From NCBI GenBank assembly GCA_023663235.1, contig JAMPHW010000006.1, positions 1 through 37,234 on the forward strand: 37,234 nucleotides of DNA, read 5' to 3'. The first letter of the stretch is position 1; each line of letters begins with the position of its first letter. Below the pieces are notes generated by a model. The model ran no database searches and was not told where the DNA came from. It saw only the letters and a program-made list of their open reading frames with translations. The DNA comes from Ruminococcus sp. (GTDB lineage: Bacteria > Bacillota_I > Bacilli_A > RF39 > UBA660). A program made the translations under genes and the position numbers. Below are positions 8,905-33,094 of this stretch, in pieces.

Positions 8905-8977
8905 TAAATTTCTTGGTATTTTTCTTCTTTTGACTGAGTACAATTTATATCATGAGAAAATATATTTGGTGAATAAT

Positions 8978-9433
8978 ATGATTTATAGCAAAAATTTGAA
9001 AGAACTTAGAGAAAGAAATGGATATACTATAGCTGATTTAGCAAAAATAATAAATGTTGATAAAACAGGATATGGTCATTATGAAAGAGAATATGTCATT
9101 ATTCCAATTAAACATCTAGTTACTTTATGCGATTATTTTAATATATCCATTGATTATATTTTTAATTTTACCGATTTAAAACAGTATAATGAAACTAGAA
9201 ATGGTATTGACAGAAATCTGACTGTTCTAAGATTAAAAGAATTTAGAAAAGAAAACAAATTAACACAAGAAAGACTTGCCAAAGTTATAAATATAAGTAG
9301 CGGAACTATTGCTGGCTATGAAATTGGTCGATACTTAATGGCTACTCCTTTTTTATATACTATTTGTAATAAATACAATATATCTGCTGATTATCTTTTA
9401 GGGAGAATTGACAGTCCTAAATATCTTAAATAA
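8978..9433 (+). CDS. XRE-family regulator with two tandem HTH domains
   Basis: This 151-aa protein is built from two Cro/C1-type helix-turn-helix units. The first (about 5-60) contains LKELRERNGYTIADLAKIIN and ends FNISIDYIF. The second (about 86-148) contains LKEFRKENKLTQERLAKVIN and ends YNISADYLLGR. Each unit keeps the five-helix XRE spacing, so one chain could bind a two-part operator. The open frame extends upstream to TTG 8930; ATG 8978 is preferred because the HTH begins there and GGTGA lies 5 nt upstream. It is divergent from the surface-protein gene, which it may control. No ligand-binding or protease domain is present. Confidence 0.85.
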   Translation: MIYSKNLKELRERNGYTIADLAKIINVDKTGYGHYEREYVIIPIKHLVTLCDYFNISIDYIFNFTDLKQYNETRNGIDRNLTVLRLKEFRKENKLTQERLAKVINISSGTIAGYEIGRYLMATPFLYTICNKYNISADYLLGRIDSPKYLK

Positions 9434-9470: not shown

Positions 9471-9499
9471 TGGACACTTGTAAATTTATATTATATAAT
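9471..9499 (+). promoter_or_regulatory. Promoter of the candidate structured RNA
   Basis: TGGACA (9471-9476), exactly 17 nt, then TATAAT (9494-9499). The predicted start (9506-9507) coincides with the first base of the RNA's terminal stem. Confidence 0.75.
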
Positions 9500-9506
9500 T
9501 AACTTA

Positions 9507-9762
9507 GATACATTTGATAGTTAGGTGTTTTAACCCTCAGTCCATTATTTTAATTTTTATTATTTTGGAAAGAGGTGGTCCTATGATTGGAGATTTTAAT
9601 GGATTATATAATCCTGATTGTTATCCTTGTGATACTTTCAAAAATTTACGAAAACAGGTATTAAAAATAAGCACCCACTCACATGAATAGGTGCTTACTC
9701 AAACATATTATTATGGACTGAGAAACATCTAACAGACAAAAGTCAAATGTATCTCTTTTTTT
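9507..9762 (+). ncRNA. Candidate structured RNA with end-pairing stem and internal small ORF
   Basis: The 5' and 3' ends form a long interrupted helix: GATACATTTGA/TCAAATGTATC (11 bp, 9507-9517 with 9743-9753), an asymmetric internal loop, GTTAGGTGTTT/AAACATCTAAC (11 bp with one G-U), a 5-nt bulge, then CTCAGTCCAT/ATGGACTGAG (10 bp). An inner hairpin TAAGCACC/GGTGCTTA lies at 9668-9697. A T-run (9756-9762) follows the closing stem, as in an intrinsic terminator. A near-consensus promoter ends exactly where the stem begins. The interior holds a short ORF with a strong ribosome site. I match it to no known class: it lacks tmRNA features and no reverse transcriptase or transposase is nearby. It lies in the 387-nt gap between the XRE gene and trpS. 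Confidence 0.6.
9583..9690 (+). CDS. 35-codon ORF inside the structured RNA
   Basis: The ATG is preceded by AGAGGTGG at a good distance. The 35-aa peptide begins MIGDFNGLYNPDCYPCD, contains a CxxC and a basic stretch (FKNLRKQ), and ends ISTHSHE. It has no membrane segment, so it does not resemble type I toxins. Its last ten codons form most of the inner hairpin, so translation would open that hairpin. Homology unknown. Confidence 0.45.
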   Translation: MIGDFNGLYNPDCYPCDTFKNLRKQVLKISTHSHE

Positions 9763-9820
9763 ATATCCATTTATATTATATACATAAATTAGGTTAAAAT
9801 GCAAGCTAAAGTATGATTAC

Positions 9821-12491: not shown

Positions 12492-13190
12492 TTACCTTAT
12501 TAAACTTCTTACCAAAGCTGGTTCAGTAGTTATTATCCCATCTGGATTTTTATCAATATAGTTATTTATTCTTCTAGCATTTTCCTTATAAAGGAGTTCC
12601 CAAGTCCATGCGTATTCTCTAGCTTTTGGAAACAGATTTCTAAAGTAAAGATAATTTTCTTTTATTTTTGTCCATTCCCATAGTTCTGATGATAAAGATA
12701 AAAAATCTATTTCGTCAATTAATTTTATATTTTCTTTTTTATATTTATGTACTTTAAATAAATTAACTATTAGTCCTATTTCATCGCATGAAAGTTCATT
12801 TTTATAAGCAAGTAATTGTGATACTAACTGAGAATTGAAACTTTGAAGAGATATTTCTCCATTATAGAATTTAAGAACTTCTAACGCTTTTAATAATCTA
12901 CTAATCATACTATAATTAAATCCATCAAAGTATTTAATTTCAATGAGAATACTAATATTACCATTTAATATTTCTAAAACTTCTTCTAAAGTAATTAAAC
13001 TTGACAATTTTTTATATTCAGTTCTACTAATGATTTTTCTTTCAAATATTGGGCTATGAGTCCATACTAATTTACCATCTTTAGTAAGAACAAAATCCAT
13101 TTCTAATTTTAAACAAGAACTAGATATTAAATAATGTTCTAAAGCTGATGTAGTTTTATTCAAAAATGATGTATGTCCAATTATTTCCAT
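12492..13190 (-). CDS. Divergent glycerophosphodiester phosphodiesterase family protein
   Basis: This 232-aa protein has the GDPD pattern in order: IGH (His6), LEMDFVLTKDGKLV (Glu30, Asp32), THSP (His45), LIEIKYF and a C-terminal PDGIITTEP. GDPDs hydrolyse glycerophosphodiesters to glycerol-3-phosphate and an alcohol. Two usual features differ: HRG is HTS, and the HD after the TKDG strand is HS, so activity may be altered or absent. No signal peptide, so cytoplasmic. AGGAG precedes the ATG and a promoter with 17-nt spacing lies upstream, just past the ribosomal operon terminator. Confidence 0.82.
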   Translation of the reverse strand: MEIIGHTSFLNKTTSALEHYLISSSCLKLEMDFVLTKDGKLVWTHSPIFERKIISRTEYKKLSSLITLEEVLEILNGNISILIEIKYFDGFNYSMISRLLKALEVLKFYNGEISLQSFNSQLVSQLLAYKNELSCDEIGLIVNLFKVHKYKKENIKLIDEIDFLSLSSELWEWTKIKENYLYFRNLFPKAREYAWTWELLYKENARRINNYIDKNPDGIITTEPALVRSLIR

Positions 13191-13213
13191 ACAATTTCTC
13201 CTGACAGGAATTT

Positions 13214-13242
13214 ATTCTATCATTAAAATTGCAAATATACAA
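13214..13242 (-). promoter_or_regulatory. Promoter of the GDPD gene
   Basis: On the minus strand, TTGTAT (13242-13237), 17 nt, TAGAAT (13219-13214). It lies immediately downstream of the ribosomal operon terminator. Confidence 0.55.
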
Positions 13243-13269
13243 TAAAAAACTATCTTAATAAGATAGTTT
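13240..13269 (-). terminator. Terminator of the S10-spc-alpha operon
   Basis: On the minus strand, AAACTATCTT/AAGATAGTTT is a 10-bp perfect stem with a 3-nt loop, followed by a T-run. The rplQ stop codon lies in its 5' arm. It is the only good intrinsic terminator I saw between rpsJ and this point. Confidence 0.85.
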
Positions 13270-13609
13270 AAACTAATTCTAATTTAACTTGTAGAGCATC
13301 ATCACCAACACGTTCTTTTAATTTAGTTATTCTAGTATAACCACCATTGCGTGTTTCATAACGTTTAGCAAGTTCATTAAATACTTTATTAACAGCATCA
13401 GTATCATTATATAAGAATGCTAGAGCTTTTCTTCTATTAACTAATGTGCCTTTTTTTCCATAAGTAATCATTTTATCAACGAATTTTCTAACTTCTTTAG
13501 CTCTAGCTTCAGTTGTTACAACAGATTCATTCATTATAACATCTTTAGTTATATTAGCTAGAACGCTTCTTCTGTGTCTTGATTCTCTACTTAATTTTCT
13601 ATAACTCAT
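13268..13609 (-). CDS. rplQ: 50S ribosomal protein L17
   Basis: This 113-aa protein has the L17 signature (LSRESRHRRSVLANI, TEARAKEVRKFVDKMIT, RRKALAFLYN) and a C-terminus typical of the short bacterial form. Last gene of the operon, preceded by AGGAGG 11 nt after rpoA, and terminated across its own stop codon. Confidence 0.97.
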   Translation of the reverse strand: MSYRKLSRESRHRRSVLANITKDVIMNESVVTTEARAKEVRKFVDKMITYGKKGTLVNRRKALAFLYNDTDAVNKVFNELAKRYETRNGGYTRITKLKERVGDDALQVKLELV

Positions 13610-13620
13610 ATATATCCTCC

Positions 13621-14565
13621 TTAATCACGGAATTTAAGTCCCATTTCAGCAACTTTATCAAGTACTTCTTTAAGTGATTTTTTACCTAAATTACGTATCT
13701 TGGTAACTTCTACTTCTCTTTTAGAAATTAAATCTTGAACAGTATGAATACCAGCTCTTTTTAAACAATTATAAGCTCTTACAGAGAACTCTATTTCTTC
13801 AATAGGAGTTTCTAGAGTTTTTGTAATTGTATCTATTTTCTTTTCTTGCATTAATCCTGTTACATCACTAATTGAATTTAGATCAGCGACAATATTAAAA
13901 TGTTCGATTAGAATTCTTGCAGATAAAGCCATAGCTTCTTCAGGAGTCATACTTCCATTGGTAGTAATTTCCATAGTTAATTTATCATAGTTTTCATTTT
14001 GACCTACACGAGTTGATTCAACTTCATATTTAACAAGTTCGATTGGAGAATAGTTAGAGTCGATTGCAATAACACCAACTTTATTCTCTGCAAATATTTT
14101 TTTATTTTCTTTAGAATCAACATAGCCACTACCATTAGAAATAGTAACTTCCATATCGATTTTGCCACCTTCAACTAAGTTACAAATAACAAGTTCAGGA
14201 TTAATAATTTCAATATCAGAATTCTTTTCAAAATCAGCAGCAGTTACAGGTCCTTCTGTATCTTTGAATAATCTTAAAGTTTTAACTTCTTCAGTATGAT
14301 TTTTTACAACAACATTTTTAAGAGCAAGTACGATACTTGTTACATCTTCAACAATGCCATTTATTTTTTGGAATTCATGTAATACACCTTCAATTTTTAC
14401 TGAAGTAATTGCACTTCCTGGTAAACTAGATAACATAACTCTTCTTATTGCATTTCCAATAGTTGTTCCAAAACCTCTTTCAAGTGGTTCTAACTCAAAT
14501 TTTCCATAATGACTGCTTTCTTGATATTCAGCAATCTTATACTCTGGTTTTTCAAAACTAATCAT
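13621..14565 (-). CDS. rpoA: RNA polymerase subunit alpha
   Basis: This 314-aa protein has the assembly domain in its N-terminal two thirds (LEPLERGFGTTIGNAIRR, MLSSLPGSAITSVKI) and, after a linker, the C-terminal DNA- and activator-binding domain (about 245-314, FSVRAYNCLKRAGIHTV, IRNLGKKSLKEVLDK). It dimerises to start polymerase assembly. Normal length for Firmicutes. It lies between rpsK and rplQ as expected. Confidence 0.98.
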   Translation of the reverse strand: MISFEKPEYKIAEYQESSHYGKFELEPLERGFGTTIGNAIRRVMLSSLPGSAITSVKIEGVLHEFQKINGIVEDVTSIVLALKNVVVKNHTEEVKTLRLFKDTEGPVTAADFEKNSDIEIINPELVICNLVEGGKIDMEVTISNGSGYVDSKENKKIFAENKVGVIAIDSNYSPIELVKYEVESTRVGQNENYDKLTMEITTNGSMTPEEAMALSARILIEHFNIVADLNSISDVTGLMQEKKIDTITKTLETPIEEIEFSVRAYNCLKRAGIHTVQDLISKREVEVTKIRNLGKKSLKEVLDKVAEMGLKFRD

Positions 14566-14590
14566 AAAATAATTTCCTTCTCTCTAATAA

Positions 14591-14974
14591 CTAATTTCTT
14601 GGACGTTTTGGTGGACGACAACCATTATGAGGTACTGGTGTATCATCAGTGATAGACAAAATTTCAAGACCTGCAGCTTGTAGTGCTCTAATAGCAGTTT
14701 CTCTACCGCCACCTAAACCTTTTACAACAACATCAACTTTTTTAACACCTTGTTCTTGTGCTGCTTTAGCAGCTGCATCTGCAGCAATACCTGCTGCAAA
14801 TGGAGTCTTCTTTTTGCTTCCTTTATATCCAATAGTTCCACTTGATGCCCAAGCAATTACACTACCATCTTTTTCAGTGATTGTAACGATTGTGTTATTG
14901 TATGTAGAATGAATATGAGCCACAGCCTCAGGAATATTCTTTTTTACTTTTCTTTTTCTTCTATTATATGCCAT
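14591..14974 (-). CDS. rpsK: 30S ribosomal protein S11
   Basis: This 127-aa protein has typical segments [36 protein letters not shown] and the C-terminal [16 protein letters not shown]. It forms part of the 30S platform near the E site. AGGAGG precedes the ATG, and rpsM lies 11 nt upstream. Confidence 0.98.
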
Positions 14975-14985
14975 AAATTATCCTC

Positions 14986-15360
14986 CTACTTTGTAGCCTT
15001 TTTCTTATTAGCTACTACTTTACCTCTACCCTTACGAGTGTGAGCGTTACGACTAGTTCTTTGCCCTCTTACAGGAAGACCTTTTTTATGTCTAACTCCT
15101 TGATAGCAACCAATTTCCATTTTATTTTTAATACTCATTTGGACATTACGACGTAAATCACCTTCAACAATGTGATTGTCTACTTCTTTACGTAATTTTG
15201 TAATTTCTTCATCTGTTAAATCTTTAACCTTTGTTGCAGGGTTAACGCCTGCATTTTCACAAATTGTTCTACCTAAACTATTACCAATACCATATATTGC
15301 AGTAAGTCCTACAAATATTTGTTTTTCACTTGGTAATTCAATATTTTTAATACGTGCCAT
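14986..15360 (-). CDS. rpsM: 30S ribosomal protein S13
   Basis: This 124-aa protein has LTAIYGIGNSLGRTICENAG near the N-terminus and a basic tail with GLPVRGQRTSRNAHTRKG, the part that contacts P-site tRNA. GGAGG precedes the ATG. Position between rpmJ and rpsK is canonical. Confidence 0.98.
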   Translation of the reverse strand: MARIKNIELPSEKQIFVGLTAIYGIGNSLGRTICENAGVNPATKVKDLTDEEITKLRKEVDNHIVEGDLRRNVQMSIKNKMEIGCYQGVRHKKGLPVRGQRTSRNAHTRKGRGKVVANKKKATK

Positions 15361-15374
15361 AATTACCTCCTTTA

Positions 15375-15488
15375 TTAACCTTGTGTTTGTTTGTGTTTAG
15401 GGTTTTCACAAATAACCATAACTTTACCTTTTCTTCTTATTATTTTACATTTTTTACATATCTTTTTTACTGATGGTCTAACTTTCAT
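15375..15488 (-). CDS. rpmJ: 50S ribosomal protein L36
   Basis: This 37-aa protein begins [20 protein letters not shown] and ends [10 protein letters not shown]. The C-x2-C...C-x4-H zinc ribbon is complete (Cys11, Cys14, Cys27, His32), so this is the zinc-binding form. It lies in its usual place between infA and rpsM, with a good ribosome site (GGAGG). It is short enough to be missed by length filters. Confidence 0.95.
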
Positions 15489-15501
15489 TTTAATTCCTCC
15501 A

Positions 15502-15753
15502 TTATCTTTTGTTCCATGTAATACGCCCACGTGTTAAATCATAAGGCGAAAGCTCTATTGTTACTGTATCACCCGGTAGAATACGAATTTGATTTACTCG
15601 CATTTTACCAGAAACGTAGGCCTCTACAGTAAATCCATTAGGTAGTTCTACTAAGTAATCTCCGCCTTTTAAAACTTCCATTACTTTTCCTTCTACTTCG
15701 ATTTTCTCTTCTTTATTATTTTGATTAACATTATTTTTAAATTTTTTCGCCAT
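15502..15753 (-). CDS. infA: Translation initiation factor IF-1 with N-terminal extension
   Basis: In this 83-aa protein the OB fold is standard ([49 protein letters not shown]). IF-1 is usually about 72 aa and begins directly before IEVEG; here about ten extra polar residues ([13 protein letters not shown]) precede it. The ATG is supported by AGGAG in the end of map, which it overlaps by 17 nt, and no other Met lies before the OB fold. Confidence 0.95.
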
Positions 15754-16504
15754 TGCTAATATCTCCTGTTAAAATTTTATATCCATCTTTTGTAACTGCA
15801 ACTGTATGTTCAAAATGAGCACTTGGAAGACCATCATCAGTTACGATAGTCCATTCATCATCTAACATACATACATCCTTTTTACCTAAATTTAGCATTG
15901 GTTCTATTGCTAAAACCATGCCTTCTTTTAATATTGGTCCTTCATTTTTATTTCCAAAATTGGGAACATCAGGATCTTCATGCATATCTGTACCAATACC
16001 ATGACCTACTAGTTCTTCTACTACTGAAAGATTATGTTTATGAGCAAATGTTTCGATAGCATTTGATATATCACCGATTCTAGCTCCAGGTTTAACTTCT
16101 TTTATACCTTCATATAAAGCTTTTTCAGTATTAAGAACTAAATCTTTAATCTCTTCGGGAACATCACCAATAATATATGTTCTAGCACTATCCGATTCAT
16201 AGCCATTAAGTCTTACTGTAAAATCAATTGAGACTATATCACCATTTTTTATTTTTCTTTTAGATGGTATACCATGAACCACTTCATCATTAATTGAAAT
16301 ACAAATACTTGCAGGAAAGCCTTCATAATTAAGACAAGATGGGATAGCATTATGTGATGTAATAAAGTTATAAGCGATTTTATCTAAATACTCGGTTGTT
16401 ACGCCTACTTTTAGATGTTTTTTTATTTCTTCATGAGCTTGATAGTTTAAGATACCAGCTTCACGCATTAACTCTATTTCACGCTCACTTTTAATACTAA
16501 TCAT
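15737..16504 (-). CDS. map: Methionine aminopeptidase, type I
   Basis: This 255-aa dinuclear-metal enzyme removes the initiator Met after deformylation. Metal ligands are visible: [18 protein letters not shown] (two Asp), [17 protein letters not shown] (His), MVLAIEPML (Glu) and [10 protein letters not shown] (Glu). It overlaps adk upstream by 8 nt and infA downstream by 17 nt. Spc-operon location is the Firmicutes norm. Functionally it pairs with a deformylase; the one in this window is far away and divergent. Confidence 0.97.
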
Positions 16505-17150
16505 TATTCGCCTCTTTAATTACTTCTTCAAGCACCCTATTAAAATCATTATCTACTTTAATTTCTTTTAATATTTGCATATTTTTATAATAATCTAATA
16601 ATGATCTTGCATTATTTAAATATGCATCAAAACGTACTTTGAAAGATTCTTCATTATCATCAGTTCTTTTTATAAGCTCTGTTTTACAATCATCGCAGAC
16701 ATTATCCTCAATAGACTTCATATCTTCAAAATATACATTATAACTACGACCACAATTTGGACAATTTACACGTCCTAGTACTCTTTTTAATGCTAAATCA
16801 TAATCAATATCTAGATATATTGCGATGTTGTTAGTAACTCCTAAGTTTACTAACATTTTATTTAAGTTTTTAGCTTGATTTAAAGTTCTTGGAAACCCAT
16901 CAAGGATAAAAGAGCCATTAGAAAGATTCTTTAGTTTATTTTCCATTAAAGATATCATAACGTCATCACTAACTAAGTCGCCTTTTGCCATAATTTCTTT
17001 AATTTCATTACCAAAGTCACTTCCACTAGCTATCTCTTCTCTTAATAAATCGCCTGTACTTAAATGATTGTAATGATAATTTTTAATTAGATAATCACTA
17101 ATTGTTCCTTTACCCGCAGCGGGAGGGGCGATAAAGATGATATTCTTCAT
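16497..17150 (-). CDS. adk: Adenylate kinase (zinc-type LID, altered P-loop)
   Basis: This 217-aa enzyme converts ATP plus AMP to two ADP. STGDLLREEIA, ILDGFPRTLNQA and the LID region are typical. The LID carries four zinc-ligand Cys (C130, C133, C152, C155), as in many Gram-positive enzymes. The P-loop reads APPAAGKGT (8-16) instead of GPPGAGKGT: two glycines are Ala but the GKGT is kept. Probably still active. Starts 2 nt after the secY stop; AGAGG in the end of secY is the likely ribosome site. Confidence 0.96.
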   Translation of the reverse strand: MKNIIFIAPPAAGKGTISDYLIKNYHYNHLSTGDLLREEIASGSDFGNEIKEIMAKGDLVSDDVMISLMENKLKNLSNGSFILDGFPRTLNQAKNLNKMLVNLGVTNNIAIYLDIDYDLALKRVLGRVNCPNCGRSYNVYFEDMKSIEDNVCDDCKTELIKRTDDNEESFKVRFDAYLNNARSLLDYYKNMQILKEIKVDNDFNRVLEEVIKEANND

Positions 17151-17152
17151 CG

Positions 17153-18415
17153 TTATCTAAACCTCTTCTTTCTTGCTGAGTAACTTCTAGCAGTTAAACT
17201 ACTTTCAATTTGTTTATAAGTTTCTATTGCGACACCAACAACAATTAATATTCCTGTACCACCAATAGTGACACTACTAGGTAGTTTAGTAAATGTTGAT
17301 AATAATACTGGTAAACCAGCTAATATTACTAAGAATACTGATCCAACTAAGGTTAATCTTGATAAAGATTTACTAATATAGTTAGATGTATCTTCGCCTG
17401 GTCTAACACCCGGAATATATCCTCCATTTTTATTTAAATTCTTACTCATTTCTTCTGGATTCATACTTAAGAAAGTATAGAAGTATCCAAAGATAAAAAT
17501 AAGTAATACATATAGAAGAAATCCTACAGGTGATGTATATACTATATAATTATTAACAAAATTAATTGCTGCTTCATTTTTTGTAAGTTGAACAATGGTT
17601 GCTGGTATAGTTGTTAGAACAGATGCAAATATTACAGGCATAACTCCAGCACTATTTATTTTTATTGGTAAGTAAGTAGTTTGAGCACCATATGCACTTG
17701 TTGTTCTATTTGAATATTGGATTGGTATTCTTCTTTCAGCTAACTGAATCCATATTATACCTACAATTATTAGAATATAACTTAGAATAAATACTCCAAA
17801 AAGGGTAATACCTAAACCAGTTTCATAAGCACCTCTAACAAAAGTATTAAAAGCACTCGTAAAGACGTTTGGCATTGACATTAAAATACCAGCCATAATT
17901 AATAATGATTGACCATTACCAATTCCTTTTTGTGATATTTGATCACCCATCCATAATAAGAATGCTGTACCAGCAGTCATTACTAAACTAGTTTTTAGCA
18001 TAACCATAACATCTGGACTTTTTAGATAAAAGACACTTAATGCATAAGCTTGGATAAAGGCAATAATTATACCTAAATACCTTGTTATACGATTAATCTT
18101 TTGTCTTCCAACATAACCTTGTTCTTTTAGCTCTTTAAAATAAGGAATAATATCCATTTGTAATAACTGAGTAATGATACTTGCAGTTATATAGGGACTA
18201 ACGCCTAGTCCAAAGATAGAGAATTGTCTTAAACCTCCACCACTCATTAAGTTAAAGATTTCTAAAAATCCTAACTCTTCTAATACTTGACTAGCCCAAG
18301 GAATGGTAATATTAACACCTAATGCAAAGAAACCTAAACAAAATAAGGTAAAGTATATTCTTTTTCTTAAATCTTTATTTTGTTTACTAAATATTTTGGC
18401 AATTCCTTTAAACAT
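17153..18415 (-). CDS. secY: Protein translocase subunit SecY
   Basis: In this 420-aa, about ten-helix membrane channel protein, landmarks are FFALGVNITIPW (first helix), GLGVSPYITASIITQLLQMD (plug region), the cytoplasmic loop ERRIPIQYSNRT, and NKNGGYIPGVRPGEDT. It is the core of the Sec translocon that exports the many signal-peptide proteins in this window. The start abuts the rplO stop without a gap. Normal length. Confidence 0.98.
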   Translation of the reverse strand: MFKGIAKIFSKQNKDLRKRIYFTLFCLGFFALGVNITIPWASQVLEELGFLEIFNLMSGGGLRQFSIFGLGVSPYITASIITQLLQMDIIPYFKELKEQGYVGRQKINRITRYLGIIIAFIQAYALSVFYLKSPDVMVMLKTSLVMTAGTAFLLWMGDQISQKGIGNGQSLLIMAGILMSMPNVFTSAFNTFVRGAYETGLGITLFGVFILSYILIIVGIIWIQLAERRIPIQYSNRTTSAYGAQTTYLPIKINSAGVMPVIFASVLTTIPATIVQLTKNEAAINFVNNYIVYTSPVGFLLYVLLIFIFGYFYTFLSMNPEEMSKNLNKNGGYIPGVRPGEDTSNYISKSLSRLTLVGSVFLVILAGLPVLLSTFTKLPSSVTIGGTGILIVVGVAIETYKQIESSLTARSYSARKKRFR

Positions 18416-18859
18416 CTAAATCACCTCTGCTTTACCGCCAGCATTTTCTATTTTGGTAACGGCTGCAGATGAAAATCTATTTGCCTTAACAGTTAATTTT
18501 TTGGTAATTTCGCCATTAGCTAATACTTTAACACCACTTAATTGTTTTTTAACTATACCTTTTTCTTTTAATACTTCTGGTGTAATTAAATCACCGTCAT
18601 TAAAATGTTTATCTAGATCGCTTAAATTAATTGTTGCAAACTTTGTTTCAAAACGTTTATTATTAAAACCACGTTTTGGTATTCTTCTATAAATTGGAGT
18701 TTGTCCACCTTGGAACCATGCACTTATGCTTGCTCCACTTCTAGACTTTTGACCATTTTCTCCACGACCAGCAGTTTTGCCAGTTCCACTTCCAGGACCG
18801 CGGCCAACTCTTTTACGCGCCTTTGTTTCGTTTGACGCAGGTAATGTTTCTAACTTCAT
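18416..18859 (-). CDS. rplO: 50S ribosomal protein L15
   Basis: This 147-aa protein begins MKLETLPASNETKARKRVGR and continues with the Gly-rich GPGSGTGKTAGRGENGQKSR and the FQGGQTPIYRRIPKRGF motif. A longer frame runs back into rpsE, but ATG 18859 is preceded by GGAGG and matches the family start. It begins 1 nt after the rpsE stop, leaving no room for rpmD (L30), which normally stands here. Confidence 0.97.
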   Translation of the reverse strand: MKLETLPASNETKARKRVGRGPGSGTGKTAGRGENGQKSRSGASISAWFQGGQTPIYRRIPKRGFNNKRFETKFATINLSDLDKHFNDGDLITPEVLKEKGIVKKQLSGVKVLANGEITKKLTVKANRFSSAAVTKIENAGGKAEVI

Positions 18860-18860
18860 T

Positions 18861-19364
18861 TTATAACTCCTCCACTTTCTTACCACGAAGTGCTGCTACT
18901 TTTGCAGGACTCTTTTGTGATTTTAAAGCTTCAAGTGTTGCTTTAGCAACGTTTATCTTTGTATTTGAGCCTAATGACTTAGAAACGATATCTTTAACAC
19001 CAGCTAATTCAAGAACAGCACGAGCAGCACCACCAGCGATAACTCCAGTACCTTCTTTAGCAGGTTTAATCATAACAACAGCACGACCTACTTTAGCAGT
19101 GGCATCATGAGGAATAGTTCTATTATCCATTAGGGCAACCTTTGTTACGTTTTTATTAGCGGCTTGTAAGGCTTTTTTTATAGCTTCTGGAACTTCGTTA
19201 GCTTTACCAGTACCAATACCTACTAAACCTTTACGATTACCAACGACAACAGTTGCTGAGAATCTAAAGTGTCTACCACCTTTAGTAACCTTTGTTACTC
19301 TACCAATAGAGATTACTTTTTCTTCTAATAAATTCTTTTTAGGTTCTATATTTTTCTTTGGCAT
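18861..19364 (-). CDS. rpsE: 30S ribosomal protein S5
   Basis: This 167-aa protein has a conserved RNA-binding domain ([38 protein letters not shown]) and the C-terminal fold ([19 protein letters not shown]). Located at the mRNA entry side of the 30S and involved in decoding fidelity. Followed directly by rplO. Confidence 0.98.
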
Positions 19365-19380
19365 AATTTATCCTCCCACT

Positions 19381-19737
19381 CTAGAATTCTAATCCGTTTT
19401 CACGTGCAGATGCTGCTAAAGCTTCAACACGTCCATGATATAGGTAGCCACCTCTATCAAATACAACAGATTTAATTTTTGCACTTTTACACTTTTTAGC
19501 AATATCAGCTCCAACTAATTTAGCTGCTTCAATATTGCCACCATTTTTAATATCTAATTCAACACTTGATGAACTAACTAAGGTTTTACCGGTAGTATCA
19601 TCAATTACTTGAACATAGATTTCTTTATTTGAACGAAACACATTTAATCTTGGAACTTCACTAGTACCACTAATTTTATCACGAACTCTAGCGTGACGTC
19701 TTAAACGTGCAACATTACTAGCTTCTTTTTTTATCAT
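19381..19737 (-). CDS. rplR: 50S ribosomal protein L18
   Basis: This 118-aa protein has [37 protein letters not shown] and a C-terminus [16 protein letters not shown]...ENGLEF, all L18-typical. It binds 5S rRNA with L5. Lies between rplF and rpsE. Confidence 0.98.
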
Positions 19738-19757
19738 AATTTCCGACCTTCCTAACC

Positions 19758-20297
19758 TTATTTAGCTGCTTTCTTTCCTTCTTTACGACGTACATATTCG
19801 CCTTTGTAACGGATACCTTTACCTTTATATGGTTCTGGTTCTCTTATTTTACGAATATTAGCCGCAAATTCAGAAACTTTTTGTTTATCAATACCACTAA
19901 TATTAATTTCAGTATTACTTACTGCTTCAGCTTTTAAGCCCTCTGGAACTTCAACGATTACAGGATGAGAGAAACCAGCAGAAACATTGATTTTATTTCC
20001 ATTTACTTGGAAACGATAACCAACACCAACAATTTCTAATCCTTTAGTAAAACCCTCACTTACTCCTTCAATCATATTTGAGATTAAAGAGTTCATAGTT
20101 CCAACATTAACATTAGCTTCTTTACTACTATTTTTAACTTTAGTTTCAACAGTACTTTCATTTATTACTATTTCAACTAATTTGTGTATTTCCCTTGTTA
20201 AAGTTCCTTTAGAACCTTTAACTGTTAAGATATTATCATTTAATACTACCTCTACACCACTAGGTATAGCGATTACTCTATTACCAATTCTACTCAT
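19758..20297 (-). CDS. rplF: 50S ribosomal protein L6
   Basis: This 179-aa protein begins [17 protein letters not shown], with the two similar L6 domains and the C-terminal signature [20 protein letters not shown]. It sits near the sarcin-ricin loop and GTPase centre. Canonical place between rpsH and rplR. Confidence 0.98.
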
Positions 20298-20306
20298 AGA
20301 TATTCC

Positions 20307-20702
20307 TTACCAAATGTAGGCAAGTACTTCGCCTCCTAATCCAGCATTTCTAGCTTCTTTATCAGTCATTAGACCTTGAGAAGTAGAAATTATTGCAATT
20401 CCTAGTCCATTAAGAACACGAGGAATTTCATTAGTTTTAGCATAAACTCTTAAACCTGACTTACTAATTCTTTTTAAGCCAGTGATAACTCTTTCTTTTC
20501 TATCTCCATATTTAAGGGTTAAAGTTAATTTATCACCAGTTATATTCTTTTCATAATTATAATCAGCAATATAACCTTCTTTTTTTAGAATTTCTGCAAT
20601 TCCTAAAGTCATTTTTGTTCCGATTACTTCAACCGTTTCATATTTCATTTGATTTGCATTACGTATTCTTGTAAGCATATCTGCAATTTTATCTTGAACC
20701 AT
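20307..20702 (-). CDS. rpsH: 30S ribosomal protein S8
   Basis: This 131-aa protein has [19 protein letters not shown] at the N-terminus and [20 protein letters not shown] near the end, then [10 protein letters not shown] primary 16S rRNA binder; in E. coli S8 represses the spc operon, but no such control was traced here. Confidence 0.98.
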
Positions 20703-20720
20703 TTCTAAATTCCTCCTTCC

Positions 20721-20906
20721 TTACCAACTTGATTTCTTAACACCAGGTATTTTACCTTCGTTAGCTAGTTCTCTAAAACATATACGACAAATACCAAATT
20801 TACGCATTACACCGTGAGGTCTTCCGCATCTTTCGCATCTTGTATATGCTCTTACTTTAAATTTAGGTGTTCTTTTATTTTTAACAACCATACTTTTTTT
20901 AGCCAT
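20721..20906 (-). CDS. rpsZ: 30S ribosomal protein S14, zinc-binding type Z
   Basis: This 61-aa protein has the short zinc-type form ([20 protein letters not shown], four Cys) followed by [17 protein letters not shown]. The open frame reaches further upstream, but ATG 20906 (MAKKSMV) has AGGAGG before it and matches the family start. It sits between rplE and rpsH. Confidence 0.97.
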
Positions 20907-20919
20907 TAAAGATTCCTCC

Positions 20920-21459
20920 TTAATTCTTGAAAGGCATACCAAATGCCTTTAGTAAAGCAAAAGCTTCTTCATTAGTTTTAGCAGTAGTAACAAATACGAT
21001 ATCCATACCTCTTACTTTAACTACATTATCATACTCTATTTCTGGGAATATTAATTGTTCTTTAATTCCTAAAGTATAATTTCCTTTACCATCAAAAGCT
21101 GTTTTTGAAACGCCTCTAAAGTCTCTTACACGAGGAAGTGATACACGAATTAATTTTTCCATAAATTCATACATTTTTTCTCCTCTTAAAGTTACTTTAA
21201 CACCAATTGCTTGACCTTCTCTTAATTTGAAACCCGCGATTGATTTTTTAGCTTTAGTCACAACAGCATGTTGTCCAGTTATTAATTCTAAGTCTTTAAG
21301 AGCCGCTTCAATAAATTTATGATCACGAGCGCCATCACCACAACCCATATTAATAACTATCTTTTCTAATTTTGGTACTTGCATAATACTTGAATATTTA
21401 AATTCGTCTTTTAAACTTTTAATGATCTTTTCGTCATATAATTTTCTATAATTACTCAT
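20920..21459 (-). CDS. rplE: 50S ribosomal protein L5
   Basis: This 179-aa protein has the typical [37 protein letters not shown] and LIFPEIEYD. It binds 5S rRNA and contacts P-site tRNA. Position and length normal. Confidence 0.98.
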
Positions 21460-21469
21460 AAATATTCAC

Positions 21470-21748
21470 CTACTTATTCTTGCTTTCTTTTTTTGGCTTT
21501 TCAGCCTTTTCTTTTGTAGCTTTTTTATCATCTATTTTTTTAACATTAGATACGTGAATAGGACTTTCTATATCAAAAATTCCACCTTTATCATTTTGGT
21601 TATTTGGTTTAACGTGTTTTTTTACGATATTAATTCCTTCAACAACAACTTTATCTTTACTCTTTAAAGTTTTAATTACTTTTCCACTTTTACCTTTATC
21701 TTTACCAGCGATAACTAAAACTTCATCACCAAGTCTTATTTTCATCAT
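21470..21748 (-). CDS. rplX: 50S ribosomal protein L24
   Basis: This 92-aa protein has a KOW motif at the N-terminus ([20 protein letters not shown]) and the conserved [16 protein letters not shown]. Shorter than the usual ~103 aa and ending in a Lys/Glu-rich tail from about residue 72. Starts at either of two adjacent ATGs (21748 or 21745) behind AGGAGG. Confidence 0.96.
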
Positions 21749-21757
21749 ATTAGCCTC

Positions 21758-22126
21758 CTAAATAACTTCCTTAGCAAGGGAAACTATCTTCATGTAATCA
21801 CGTTCTCTTAGTTCTCTTGCAACAGGTCCTAAAACTCTAGTTCCTGCTGGAGATTTATCGTCTTTTATAATAACACAAGCATTGTCGTCGAATTTAATAT
21901 AACTTCCATCATTTCTTCTAATACCTTCTTTAGTTCTTACGATAACAGCTTTAACAACTTTACCTTTTTTAGTATTAGAGTTAGGTATAGCTTTAACAAC
22001 TGAACCTACAACTACATCACCGATATTAGCATATTTAACTTTAGAGCCACCCATAACACGGATAACTTTAAGTTCTCTAGCTCCTGTATTATCAGCAACT
22101 TTTAATCTTGACTCTTGTTGAACCAT
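21758..22126 (-). CDS. rplN: 50S ribosomal protein L14
   Basis: This 122-aa protein has [20 protein letters not shown] at the start, [15 protein letters not shown] and [19 protein letters not shown] at the end. A highly conserved subunit-interface protein; exact family length. Confidence 0.98.
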
Positions 22127-22136
22127 AGCTTACCTC

Positions 22137-22397
22137 CTATAAAATTACAGCCTTAGAAGTTATTTCTACAAGTTCATATCTTTTAGTTTTTGATAATGGT
22201 CTTGTAGCTCTAATTCTAACTGTATCGCCTACGCCTGCTTCATTTTTTTCATCATGAGCAGTATATTTTTTGGAATATTTAACACGTTTTTTATAAAGTG
22301 GGTCTGTTTTGTAAGTTTCAACTAGTACTGTAATAGTCTTATCATTTTTATTACTTACTACTTTACCTACTAATTCTTGTTTTCTATTTTGTTCCAT
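22137..22397 (-). CDS. rpsQ: 30S ribosomal protein S17
   Basis: This 86-aa OB-fold protein has [40 protein letters not shown] and [20 protein letters not shown]. Its start overlaps the end of rpmC by 14 nt, with AAAGGAGG inside rpmC. Confidence 0.98.
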
Positions 22398-22596
22398 GAG
22401 TTTCCTCCTTTAGTTCTCTTTCACGTATAATTGTCATCATTCTTGCTACGTCTTTTCTAAGTTCTCTAATTTTAGAAGGTTTCTCTAAAGTACCAACAGA
22501 TTGTTTCATACGAAGATTAAAAAGTTCCTTTTTAGCTTCTCTTATTTTTCCTTCTAATTCCTTATCAGAAAGTTCACGTAAATCTTTAATTTTCAA
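22384..22596 (-). CDS. rpmC: 50S ribosomal protein L29 (TTG start)
   Basis: This 70-aa two-helix protein ([40 protein letters not shown]) binds near the exit tunnel. The frame is open to a GTG at 22605, but that GTG sits inside the likely ribosome site AAGGTGA. TTG 22596, 5 nt after it, gives the family-like start MKIKDLREL and is preferred. Confidence 0.95.
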
Positions 22597-23020
22597 GAGA
22601 TTCACCTTCCTTTACCTCTTTTTTTACAAATTTTGTTTTAACTGGTAATTTATGTGAAGCAAGTCTTAAGGCTTCTCTTGCTGTTGCTTCATCAACACCA
22701 CCTATTTCAAACATAATTTTTCCTTCTTTAACAACTGCTACCCAATCATCTACATTACCTTTTCCTGTACCTTGACGAGTTTCAAGTGGTTTTTTAGTAA
22801 TTGCTAAATGAGGGAAGATGTTTATCCAAACTTTACCGCCACGTTTCATATAACGAGTCATAGCGATACGAGCAGCTTCGATTTGTCTTGCACTTATCCA
22901 AGCTCCTTCGGCAGCTCTAAGTCCATATTCGCCAAAGTGAAGTTCAGTATTTCCTCTAGCATGACCATCGTAAGTTAATCTATGTGGTTTTCTATATTTA
23001 GTTCTTTTTGGCATTAACAT
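22586..23020 (-). CDS. rplP: 50S ribosomal protein L16
   Basis: This 144-aa protein begins [14 protein letters not shown], contains [20 protein letters not shown] and [17 protein letters not shown]. Start 23020 is chosen over 23029 because AGGAG lies at proper spacing only for the former and homology begins there. It overlaps the end of rpsC by 23 nt. Located near the A-site tRNA elbow. Confidence 0.97.
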
Positions 23021-23675
23021 GAGATCCATCTCCTCTCGTCATTTTTTTGGCTGGAAGAATTTCATCTTTATAAATCCATACTTTAACACCAATTTTACCA
23101 TAAGTGGTATTTGCTTCAGCTGTAGCATAATCTACGTCAGCTCTAATTGTATGAAGTGGAACAGTGCCTTCTGTATATCCTTCAGTACGAGCCATTTCTG
23201 CTCCTCCAAGTCTTCCAGATACACTTGTTTTAATACCTTTAGCTCCAGCTTTCATAGTATTTCTAATTGCTCTTTTTTGAGCACTTCTGAATGGTGCTCT
23301 AGCTTCGATTTGTGAAGCAATATTTTGGGCTACTAACTTAGCGTTTAAATCAGGATTCTTAACTTCGACAATGTTTACATATACATCTTCACCAACAAGT
23401 TTTTTAATTTCTTTTCTTAAGGCTTCAATATCTTCTCCGCCTTTACCAATTATAACTCCTGGTTTAGCTGTGTTAATTGTAACATCTACTCTTGATTTTT
23501 TACGAGAAATTTCAATAGTAGCTACTGCTGCATCTTTTAATTTTTTTTCAAGATATTCTCTAATTTTGATATCTTTATTTAAAACTTCAGCATAATTTTT
23601 ACCAGCATACCATTTAGATTCCCAATCTTTATTAACTCCAAGTCTAAAGCCTATTGGATTAACTTTCTGACCCAT
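22998..23675 (-). CDS. rpsC: 30S ribosomal protein S3
   Basis: This 225-aa protein begins [18 protein letters not shown], has the KH domain ([20 protein letters not shown]) and the C-terminal [13 protein letters not shown]. Part of the mRNA entry tunnel. The start overlaps the rplV stop by one base (TAATG). Confidence 0.98.
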
Positions 23676-24025
23676 TATGCTTCCTCCTTAACTTTACCGT
23701 CACTAACTTTAACAGTTATATGACTAGTTCTTTTATCTCTTCTATCAACATTACCTTTGCTACCAAACTTAATTCTTTTATAGATAGCTCCAGGATTAAC
23801 ATAGCATTCACTTATTACTAAATCTTCGATATTTGCTCCATTATTATTAGTAGCATTAGCAATTGCACTATTTAATACTTTAAGGATTAATCTTGAAGCT
23901 TTAGTGTTAGTGTTTTCTAAAATACCTTGAGCTGTTTGTACATCTTTACCACGAATTAAATCCATAGTCATTCTTGCTTTTCTAGGGGCAATCATAGCAC
24001 CTTTATGTATTGCATAAGTTTCCAT
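23675..24025 (-). CDS. rplV: 50S ribosomal protein L22
   Basis: This 116-aa protein has [20 protein letters not shown] and, in the tunnel hairpin, [21 protein letters not shown]. The usual Arg/Gly-rich hairpin (RxxPRARGRA) is replaced by a more divergent sequence, which may matter for macrolide response. Length normal. Confidence 0.97.
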
Positions 24026-24034
24026 TTTTACCTC

Positions 24035-24298
24035 CTACTTTTGACCTGCATGTCCACCAAACTTACGAGTCATAGCGAACTCTCCAAGTTTGTGACCTAC
24101 CATATCCTCTGTAATATATACAGGAATAAACTCTTTACCATTATGAACGGCTATTGTATGTCCGACAAAATCGGGATAAATAGTTGAACGACGAGACCAA
24201 GTTTTAATAACTTCTTTTTTATTATTTTTATTTAATTCTTGAACCTTTTTAAGTAATCTATCAAATACATAAGGTCCCTTTTTTAAACTTCGTGCCAT
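24035..24298 (-). CDS. rpsS: 30S ribosomal protein S19
   Basis: This 87-aa protein begins [19 protein letters not shown], contains [20 protein letters not shown] and ends [15 protein letters not shown]. Forms a complex with S13 in the 30S head. Confidence 0.98.
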
Positions 24299-24306
24299 AA
24301 TTCCTC

Positions 24307-25137
24307 CTATTTTTTCTTTCTACTAACAATTAACTTGCTAGAAGCTTTTTTATTTTTTCTTGTTTTATATCCAAGAGCAGGTTTACCCCAAGGAGTCATT
24401 GGACTCTTTCTACCAACTGGGGTACGTCCTTCTCCACCACCATGAGGGTGGTCGTTAGGGTTCATAACACTACCTCTATTAGTAGGTCTTACACCCATAT
24501 GACGTTTTCTTCCAGCTTTACCTAGATTAACAAGTTCATAGTCTTCATTACCAACAACACCAATAGTTGCGATACAAGTTCCTAAAACTTTTCTAGTTTC
24601 ACCAGATTGTAATCTTAAGATAACATATTTGCCATCACGTCCAAGTATTTGAGCACTAGCTCCAGCACTACGAGCAAGTTCTGCTCCTTTACCAGGCTTA
24701 AGTTCAACACAATGAACTACTGTACCAACAGGAATGTTTTCTAGTGGTAGAGCGTTACCGATTTTAATATCAGCCTCTGGACCGTTTTCAATAATCATTC
24801 CTACTTCTAAACCTTTAGGTGCAATAATATATCTTTTTTCACCATCACGATAGTTAATTAAAGCAATATTTGCACTTCTATTTGGATCGTATTCAATTGT
24901 AGCAACTCTACCAGTAATTCCAACTTTATTTCTTTTATAATCAATAAGACGGTATTTTCTTTTAGCGCCGCCACCAATATGACGAACTGTCATTTTACCT
25001 TGATTGTTTCTACCACCAGTTTTAGTTTTACTTTTTAATAAACTTTTAGTAGGAGTACTAGTTGTTAACTCTTCATTTCTTAAAGTACTCATTCCACGAC
25101 GTCCATTAGTCGTTGGTTTATATTTCTTTATTGCCAT
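24307..25137 (-). CDS. rplB: 50S ribosomal protein L2
   Basis: This 276-aa protein has [34 protein letters not shown]-like core and the C-terminal [18 protein letters not shown]. The histidine in this last segment is the one studied in peptidyl transfer. Full family length. Confidence 0.98.
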
Positions 25138-25148
25138 GAAATTTCCTC

Positions 25149-25427
25149 CTATAATTCTATTTTAGAGTCTTTATCAAGGGTAACAATAGCTTTTTTATAA
25201 GTTTTTGTCATTCCTGGATATTTTCCAACTCTTCTTTTCTTTGGTTTTGTATTTAATGTGTTTACACTTATAACTTTTACACTAAAAGCTCTTTCAACAG
25301 CTGTTTTAATTTGATCTTTAGTAGCAGTCTTAGCTACTTTAAAAGTGTATACATTATCATTTTGCATTTTAAGTGCACTTTTTTCTGTTATAACTGGTGC
25401 ATATATAATATCAGTATAATCTTTCAT
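25149..25427 (-). CDS. rplW: 50S ribosomal protein L23
   Basis: This 92-aa protein has [37 protein letters not shown] and [20 protein letters not shown]. It forms the docking site for trigger factor and SRP at the tunnel exit. Its start overlaps the rplD stop by one base. Confidence 0.98.
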
Positions 25428-26047
25428 TATTTAAGTGCCTCCTCAATATCTTTAATCGCTTCTTCATCACATACAAGAGTGTTTGCGTTTACTAAATCTA
25501 AAGCGTTTATTTCATTACTCATTAAAGCATAAGCATAACCTAGGTTTCTTGTTGCCATGAATAAGTCTTCATTTTCTTCTTTAGTTACAAATAATACTTT
25601 TCCTTGTAGTTCTAAAGCTTCAATTAATTTTTTAACTTCTTTAGTTTTTAAACTATCTAATTTAATATTATCTAATACAACTAATTCTTTATCTTGAGCT
25701 TTATGGCTTAAAGCGCTTTTTAAAGCTAGAACTCTTTCTTTCTTATTAATATCGAAAGTATAATTACGAGGAGTTACACCACCAGCAATTCCGCCTCCAC
25801 GCCATTGAGTAGCACGGATACTACCTTGACGAGCTCTACCTGTTCCTTTTTGTCTCCAAGGTTTTCTACCGCCACCTGATACTTCACTACGAGTTTTAGT
25901 TTTAGCAGTACCTTGTCTTAAAGAGTCAAGTTGTAATCTAATCATTTTCTTTAAAACTAAATCATTAGCTTCTATATTCCATACGGTGTCTTTTAAAGTT
26001 AAATCTTTAACTTTTTCACCTGTCATATTTTTTACTGTTATTTTCAT
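25427..26047 (-). CDS. rplD: 50S ribosomal protein L4
   Basis: This 206-aa protein has the extended loop SEVSGGGRKPWRQKGTGRAR lining the exit tunnel and RGGGIAGGVTPRNYTFDINK-like sequence. In E. coli L4 represses the S10 operon through its leader; whether it binds the leader seen here is unknown. Confidence 0.98.
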   Translation of the reverse strand: MKITVKNMTGEKVKDLTLKDTVWNIEANDLVLKKMIRLQLDSLRQGTAKTKTRSEVSGGGRKPWRQKGTGRARQGSIRATQWRGGGIAGGVTPRNYTFDINKKERVLALKSALSHKAQDKELVVLDNIKLDSLKTKEVKKLIEALELQGKVLFVTKEENEDLFMATRNLGYAYALMSNEINALDLVNANTLVCDEEAIKDIEEALK

Positions 26048-26067
26048 AATATTTCCTTTCTAGAAAA

Positions 26068-26859
26068 CTAATTGTTTTCTTCTCCTGGATTATCATTTGG
26101 TTCATTAGTATCAGCAATTTCTTCTGTAGTTTCAATAGTAGTTTCTGCTGTTTCAGTATTTTCTACTTCTACAGGTTCTTCTATAACTTCATCAACTATA
26201 TCTTCATAAGTTATAACTTCTTTGGCATTTGCCTTTCTACTATTTTTAACAGCTGATTTAATTAATACTAATGAATTTTTTGCTCCTGGAATATTTCCAC
26301 TAACTAAGATATAATTTTCGTTTTCATTTACTTCAATTACTTCTAAGTTTTGAATGGTAACTGTTTCAACTCCCATATGTCCAGAAAGTATTTTACCTTT
26401 TAAGACTCTTTTTGGAAGCATAGTTCCCATTGAACCAGGTCTTCTGTGATATCTTGATCCATGAGTTTCTGGTCCTCTTGATTGATTATTACGTTTAATT
26501 ACACCAGTAAAACCTTTACCTTTACTAGTTCCAGTAACATCAATTACTTCTCCTACTTCAAATATAGATGCGCCAAGATTATCACCAACATTATAAGTTC
26601 CCTCATAATCTCTGATTTCTTTTAAGTAGCGCTTAGGAGTGGTATTTGCTTTTTTTGCTCTTCCCATTTCTGGTTTAGTAGCATGTTTTTCTTTTTTCTC
26701 TAAATAGCCAAGTTGGATAGCATTGTAACCATCAGTTTCAACTGTTTTTACTTGCATTACAACGTTTGGTGTGATTTCTACTACTGTAACTGGTATTAAT
26801 TTACCATCTTTAGTAAAAACTTGAGTCATCCCAACTTTGCGTCCTAAGATTCCTTTCAT
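26068..26859 (-). CDS. rplC: 50S ribosomal protein L3 with acidic C-terminal tail
   Basis: In this 263-aa protein the core is standard ([63 protein letters not shown]) and ends near residue 209, the usual bacterial length. About 54 further residues follow, rich in Glu, Thr and Asp and almost free of Lys/Arg ([20 protein letters not shown]). The tail is in frame with no stop between, and its codon use is like the rest. Its function is unknown. Confidence 0.97.
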
Positions 26860-26876
26860 TTTTAATCCTCTCTTTT

Positions 26877-27185
26877 CTATAATTTTATATCAATGTCTAC
26901 GCCACTAGGTAAATCTAAGTGTGTTAACGCATCAATAGTTTCTTTACTTGGGTTTTTAATATCGATAAGTCTTTTATGTGTACGCATTTCAAATTGTTCA
27001 CGAGCATCTTTATATTTATGAACCGCTCTTAGTACTGTGTACTTTTGAATTTCTGTAGGAAGTGGTACTGGACCTGATACTTCTCCACCCGTTCTTTTAA
27101 CTGTTTCAATAATCTTTGCAGCTGCTGTATCAAGTAATCTATGATCAAAAGCTTTAAGATTAATTCTAACTTTAGTATTTGACAT
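26877..27185 (-). CDS. rpsJ: 30S ribosomal protein S10
   Basis: This 102-aa protein has [38 protein letters not shown] and [19 protein letters not shown]. Also the transcription factor NusE in characterised bacteria. First gene of the operon, with AAAGGAGG before the ATG and a structured leader upstream. Confidence 0.98.
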
Positions 27186-29273: not shown

Positions 29274-29402
29274 AAACTCAACTTCTTTCTTTTTTTCAAA
29301 CAGAAATAGTTTATCACAAATTTTATAATTTAACAAGTATAATAAAACGCTATGTTATTTACGATATATATTTTATAAATTTATTTATATTTATATAGGC
29401 AT

Positions 29403-31469: not shown

Positions 31470-31507
31470 AAAAAAATCCTGTTAGATTTTTTCTAATAGG
31501 ACTTTTT
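31470..31507 (-). terminator. Terminator of the dockerin-cohesin operon
   Basis: On the minus strand, AGTCCTATTAGA, A-rich loop, TCTAACAGGAT, then seven T: a strong stem (one mismatch) with its 5' arm touching the stop codon region. Confidence 0.9.
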
Positions 31508-33080: not shown

Positions 33081-33094
33081 ATACATTCCTCCTT

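Follow-up and report, generated by a model that had tools for sequence, protein, structure and literature searches.

A predicted type I toxin-antitoxin family with an overlapping leader frame and pairing mRNA ends in uncultured gut Bacilli

The locus and its two genes

The window, i.e., the whole stretch of 37,234 nt that was analysed, contains a compact locus with genes on both strands, which lies directly behind a co-oriented regulator gene and is followed by trpS on the minus strand (Table 1). Here, the plus strand would give rise to a toxin mRNA of ~255 nt with two overlapping reading frames and the minus strand to an antisense RNA of ~105 nt, placed over the last ~100 nt of the mRNA. The open reading frames and their phases, the promoters, the terminators, the complementarities and the covariation described below were read directly from the sequence. 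An earlier note had described the region as a candidate RNA of about 250 nt with its own promoter, a helix joining both ends and an internal ORF.

Table 1. Features of the predicted toxin-antitoxin locus and the gene upstream of it.
Feature	Positions	Strand	Details and basis
Double-HTH XRE-type regulator gene	8930–9433	+	Directly upstream, co-oriented; frequent neighbour in the genus
Toxin-mRNA promoter	9471–9499	+	TGGACA-17-TATAAT; 11/12 consensus; −10 kept in relatives
Predicted toxin mRNA, ~257 nt	9506–9762	+	Promoter spacing, fold, T-run
5′ arm	9506–9545	+	P1 9506–9518, P2 9520–9530, P3 9536–9545; MFE fold, covariation, P3-SD pairing
Leader SD region	9566–9577	+	TGGAAAGAGGTG; SD core GAGGTG 9572–9577; can pair with P3 5′ strand
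Overlapping leader ORF, 35 aa	9583–9690	+	Peptide sequence not conserved, phase conserved
Predicted toxin ORF, 21 aa	9599–9664	+	MDYIILIVILVILSKIYENRY; SD GGAG 9589–9592; hydrophobic peptide conserved across 61 loci
Predicted antisense RNA antitoxin, ~105 nt	9663–9768	−	Promoter/terminator signals, conservation
Antisense terminator hairpin	9668–9697	−	Minus-strand T-run 9667–9663
3′ arm	9713–9754	+	P3 9713–9722, P2 9723–9733, P1 9742–9754; MFE fold, covariation
T-run (T7), presumed toxin-mRNA 3′ end	9756–9762	+	Follows the 3′ arm in 56/61 loci
Antisense promoter	9775–9804	−	TTGCAT-18-TATAAT; strongest conserved block among copies

The near-consensus promoter reported in the earlier note was confirmed, and its −10 element is shared by the relatives, with TATAAT in 39 of 53 loci and at least five of the six bases in 48 of 53. 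A start at the helix's first base, which had been proposed as well, turned out to be a trait of the whole family, as the −10 element usually lies 5–6 nt ahead of the helix and the MFE fold of the window copy begins at this base. The T-run after the helix was found as claimed. Promoter spacing, fold and T-run thus support a discrete predicted transcript of ~255 nt. The plus strand folds with a z-score of −3.7 (equal stability in 0 of 200 shuffles); the minus strand, which likewise outperforms its shuffles, reaches −4.8 and is better than the plus strand.

Within the mRNA, the ORF with a strong ribosome site that had been noted before is indeed present and its phase is kept, but the conserved product is encoded in the +1 frame relative to it, namely by the ORF for MDYIILIVILVILSKIYENRY. 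A hydrophobic ORF of 19–30 aa, mostly 19–24 aa, with its stop ~10 nt ahead of the antisense terminator is found in 61 loci, and peptides of the relatives include MDILYLIVILIILSKIYEKKD, MEYLVIALLLILAMCKFLNKD, MEYLIILVVILVLIARITN and MELVVIFITIVFYTILVLKNKD. Among similar pairs, substitutions are distributed over the first, second and third codon position of this frame at 32, 15 and 53%, with synonymous changes making up 242 of 490 codon differences, compared with 37 of 488 in the leader frame. This bias toward the third position together with the excess of synonymous changes reveals that the toxin frame is the frame under selection. Its product appears to be a small hydrophobic membrane peptide and is a predicted toxin. 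None of the models in Pfam and NCBIfam matched the peptide, peptides of this length being hard for profiles. One diverged subfamily (L050, L051) encodes a 30-aa peptide, MTTKTFVIKVLKLIAIILFLLTILVIAIKK, and keeps the layout, with leader starts that are shorter or in-frame.

The leader was picked at each locus as the upstream ATG with the best Shine-Dalgarno sequence, irrespective of its frame. Nevertheless, the offset between leader and toxin start equals 1 mod 3 in 47 of 50 loci, spread over ten lengths (4, 10, 13, 16, 19, 22, 25, 28, 31, and 34 nt), and solely the leaders of L055, L073, and L085 are out of phase. In the conserved phase the leader covers the toxin ORF completely or almost completely. 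Conservation of the leader peptide was looked for among the relatives and was absent. Since the phase is conserved, the leader ORF is probably translated, and we infer from this pattern that its translation matters and couples to that of the toxin. In the predicted folds, opening the toxin ribosome-binding site costs 6.4 kcal/mol in the closed RNA and 6.7 kcal/mol without the 3′ arm. It is therefore costly in either fold, which would suit a need for leader coupling.

The strongest conserved block among the copies lies outside the right arm, beyond the interval of the earlier note, and represents the promoter of the minus-strand gene. The predicted antisense RNA starts near GGATATAAAAAAAGAGATAC and ends with a hairpin followed by T's at 9668–9663; promoter and terminator are both conserved among the relatives. 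The internal 8-bp hairpin noted previously exists, but it belongs to this minus-strand gene as its terminator. An A-run ahead of the hairpin, which is the T-run of the antisense RNA, is present in 35 of 54 loci, as opposed to a sense T-run after it in 2 of 54, and the hairpin is thus strand-specific. Due to this, the sense RNA is expected to extend beyond the hairpin to the T-run that follows the 3′ arm. The 5′ part of the antisense RNA repeats the 5′ arm of the mRNA and is complementary to its 3′ arm.

Copies and distribution

The host genome (1.5 Mb in 53 contigs) harbors five full copies of 69–100% identity as well as several partial copies, which stop at contig ends or gaps. Runs of N lie within two further copies (L033, L034) and are probably assembly gaps caused by the repeats. 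The matches between the copies continue past the interval of the earlier note at both ends.

The antisense alignment gave no consensus pairs in RNAalifold, and the search model of the antisense gene (R1) was therefore made from sequence only. R1 matched 17 of the 36 genomes in the genus; at the family level the count was 57 of 291 genomes, representing 43 of 150 genera, and at the order level 92 of 385. Outside the family the matches were at most borderline and unconvincing places, and the toxin locus was present in none of the four that were inspected. Two matches (L049, L058) were dropped as they lie within other genes, i.e., recA-like and miaB-like coding sequences. Orphan antisense copies persist without a toxin; an antitoxin half that outlasts its toxin half is compatible with a toxin-antitoxin pair, in a search that, being based on the antisense gene, favours such cases.

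An independent pattern, built solely on the 5′ arm, yielded 25 loci, most of which carry a toxin of the family. They comprise 23 stretches in named genomes, all of them MAGs of uncultured Bacilli, Bacillales, Firmicutes, Tenericutes or Mycoplasma and many from the 'Lapin' series, and two viral contigs (L133, L134), which bear genes for phage head, scaffold and tail proteins in addition to the toxin unit. In L133 the unit adjoins an HNH endonuclease gene. Among annotated phages and plasmids, no DNA match was found. At six loci (L070, L054, L037, L081, L093, L130), the unit or its antisense half is repeated in tandem within a few hundred bases.

Pairing ends and a proposed leader switch

In the MFE fold of the window copy, the ends of the mRNA are joined by P1 with 13 bp, P2 with 11 bp and P3 with 10 bp, interrupted by one 8-nt asymmetric loop and one 5-nt bulge. 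The earlier note had the three segments, the loop and the bulge right and had given P1 11 bp. In a sequence-only alignment of 39 loci, 89.8% of the helix cells are paired, and both sides have changed in 24 of the 33 pairs, counts that are taken over loci akin to one another and do not equal independent events. The compensatory changes, which had been asked for as a check, are present in all three helices. The number of doubly changed cells was 115 versus 32 in shuffles (0 of 500 as high), sliding of the partner abolished the signal, and the mean pairing energy of the arms was −40.8 kcal/mol for cognate and −29.5 kcal/mol for swapped, non-cognate arms; here, the arms had been found by pairing ahead of the alignment, a mild bias toward structure that the shuffle and swap controls share in part.

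The P3 5′ strand (ACCTCAGTCCA in close relatives) is complementary to two regions, namely the 3′ arm (TGGACTGAG) and the SD region of the leader (TGGAAAGAGGT). Furthermore, in a subfamily with CTCTATTC or similar as P3, the leader region has GAATAGAGG or a close variant. The P3-SD pairing reached −11.8 for cognate partners versus −9.4, and none of 5000 permutations was as good. Averaged over whole ribosome sites, end pairing was without effect on the unpaired probability (leader 0.31 vs. 0.29). Its effect shows up solely in the cost of opening the SD core, for which deletion and shuffled-arm controls were added. This cost was 3.4 kcal/mol in the closed RNA and 6.8 kcal/mol without the 3′ arm, the increase occurring in 39 of 40 loci, whereas it was 2.6 kcal/mol without both arms and 3.4 kcal/mol with a shuffled 5′ arm. 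The window's own copy displays a weak to modest effect (2.1 to 3.3 kcal/mol). These opening costs suggest that the 5′ arm masks the leader unless it is held by the 3′ arm. A hok-like masking of the toxin by end pairing had been the initial hypothesis; it was abandoned since the closed RNA opens the leader SD more cheaply.

On this basis the following mechanism can be proposed. On the nascent mRNA, the P3 5′ strand would act as an anti-Shine-Dalgarno sequence masking the leader. Once the 3′ arm has been made, the ends would pair, the anti-SD would be captured and the leader would open (ON), and for the toxin start to become accessible, translation of the leader would probably be required, like that of Mok for Hok. 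If the antisense RNA pairs with the 3′ arm first, the anti-SD would be left free and the leader would stay masked (OFF). As the antisense RNA opens with the 5′-arm sequence and can base-pair with the 3′ arm, its binding should keep the mRNA masked, and the resulting duplex of ~100 bp would be offered to RNase III. That end pairing is the ON state is predicted from equilibrium folds, which ignore kinetics and proteins, and we give this polarity about even odds. The full arrangement, an antitoxin acting by mimicry that copies the 5′ arm and competes for the 3′ arm so that the displaced 5′ arm becomes an anti-SD on a phase-locked leader, with closure as ON, has in our view slightly less than an even chance.

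The opposite polarity would make the end-paired mRNA inert, to be activated by 3′ trimming, with the antisense RNA acting on the trimmed form. Regulation in hok and AapA is known to follow this scheme, the full-length mRNA with paired ends being inert in both (PMC4147584; PMC6733600), and the ON polarity proposed for the present family may be wrong for this reason. Paired ends may also protect the mRNA from exonucleases. However, the 3′ arm pairs with the anti-SD and not with the SD, its removal raises the cost at the leader SD in nearly all loci and leaves the toxin ribosome-binding site nearly unchanged, and the antisense RNA covers the same 3′ region that trimming would take away. We therefore consider the opposite polarity rather unlikely, though it is the most serious competitor of the ON polarity. 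If true, a switch in which end pairing is ON would reverse the rule known from hok and AapA.

Known systems, rival readings and genomic surroundings

By its anatomy, we are confident that the locus belongs to the chromosomal type I toxin-antitoxin systems: a short hydrophobic ORF is under coding selection, and a complementary antisense gene has its own promoter and terminator, as judged from signals and conservation. For the whole explanation, i.e., a type I system with a leader and an end-pairing switch, we estimate a probability of roughly 0.85. A search of open-access publications found no description of the family. It would add a large type I family absent from Rfam, Pfam, and NCBIfam, hosted by a lineage of small-genome uncultured gut Bacilli.

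The hok/Sok system of plasmid R1 with its mok leader shares the small membrane toxin, the overlapping leader in another frame, the pairing mRNA ends and the cis antisense RNA (PMC4147584). In contrast, the antisense RNA described here covers the 3′ end of the mRNA, away from the leader start at 9583, end pairing is predicted to open and not to close the leader, the toxin is mostly 19–24 aa long and has no detected sequence relation to Hok, and the hosts are Bacilli. AapA/IsoA of Helicobacter has in common the multicopy chromosomal loci, the long-distance 5′-3′ interaction and an upstream anti-SD that, on the nascent mRNA, can sequester the SD in a hairpin. There, the AapA 3′ end masks the toxin SD (OFF), and the text consulted mentions no leader ORF (PMC6733600), whereas in the present family the 3′ arm pairs with the 5′ arm, captures the anti-SD and leaves the toxin site nearly as costly as before. 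The nearest precedent for the antisense effect is SR4 of Bacillus subtilis, whose binding to the bsrG mRNA 3′ end extends the masking of the SD (PMC6562991). bsrG/SR4 and txpA/RatA share the Bacilli host and an antisense RNA overlapping the 3′ end of the toxin mRNA by ~100 nt. The text consulted mentions no leader ORF for them, and a further difference is that the 5′ end of the antisense RNA copies the 5′ arm of the mRNA, that is the masking strand, in the family described here.

Ldr/Rdl with ldrX resembles the present loci in a proposed leader ORF controlling a small hydrophobic toxin and in tandem copies; its antisense RNA, on the other hand, is placed over the 5′ UTR. The toxin matched neither the Fst and Ldr profiles of Pfam and NCBIfam nor Ibs or any other toxin family in Pfam. 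The Ibs/Sib toxins are very short (18–19 aa), hydrophobic and encoded in repeated copies, as here, and we know of no leader or end-pairing switch for them. By the tests available, the family thus falls outside hok, AapA, Fst/Ldr and Ibs, and its regulatory arrangement may well be new, a view to which we give about the same weight as to its contrary. With dozens of natural mok-like leaders, in which the frame is kept and the peptide is not, leader coupling becomes comparable across variants.

Many single-helix small membrane proteins are regulators, and since we infer the toxicity of the peptide from its sequence, it might likewise be a small membrane regulator restrained by a cis antisense RNA. 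The strict partnership with the antisense gene, the tandem and multicopy arrays, the orphan antisense copies and the phage contigs are marks of type I systems, which makes this reading improbable. Far less probable still is a MITE or another small mobile element, whose terminal inverted repeats fold as RNA by chance. The earlier note had named multiple mobile copies as an argument against its RNA, and many copies are indeed found, five of them full ones in the host genome, and inverted repeats flank an internal region; yet the conserved unit extends beyond both arms into two promoters, so that the inverted repeats are not outermost, the arms covary locus by locus, and a codon-selected ORF lies inside. 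As to a 6S-like or other stand-alone regulatory RNA, which the interrupted rod closing the ends had brought to mind, we give it hardly any weight. The coding selection and the dedicated antisense gene contradict it and point to a toxin mRNA instead, and no credible Rfam match, 6S RNA included, was obtained for the window RNA or its relatives at the gathering threshold or at E up to 10, in line with the earlier statement that none could be matched.

Regarding the surroundings of this probable toxin-antitoxin locus, a homologue of the XRE regulator lies ahead of the toxin unit at 10 of the 61 loci, most of them from the genus, and the gene was rejected as a core part because it is present in just these. 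It may repress the toxin promoter. Positions 12492–27185 carry a long run of small, tightly packed minus-strand ORFs with one weak PmgS-like head-morphogenesis match, possibly a prophage or another mobile element. The 621-aa ORF at 27471–29336 strongly matches a phage-family model named translation elongation factor (E = 4.7e-127), and its product could be of the ribosome-protection type or an ordinary factor. At 31506–34843, two large proteins are encoded with cadherin-like, dockerin type I and bacterial SH3 domains, which suggests a cell-surface assembly.
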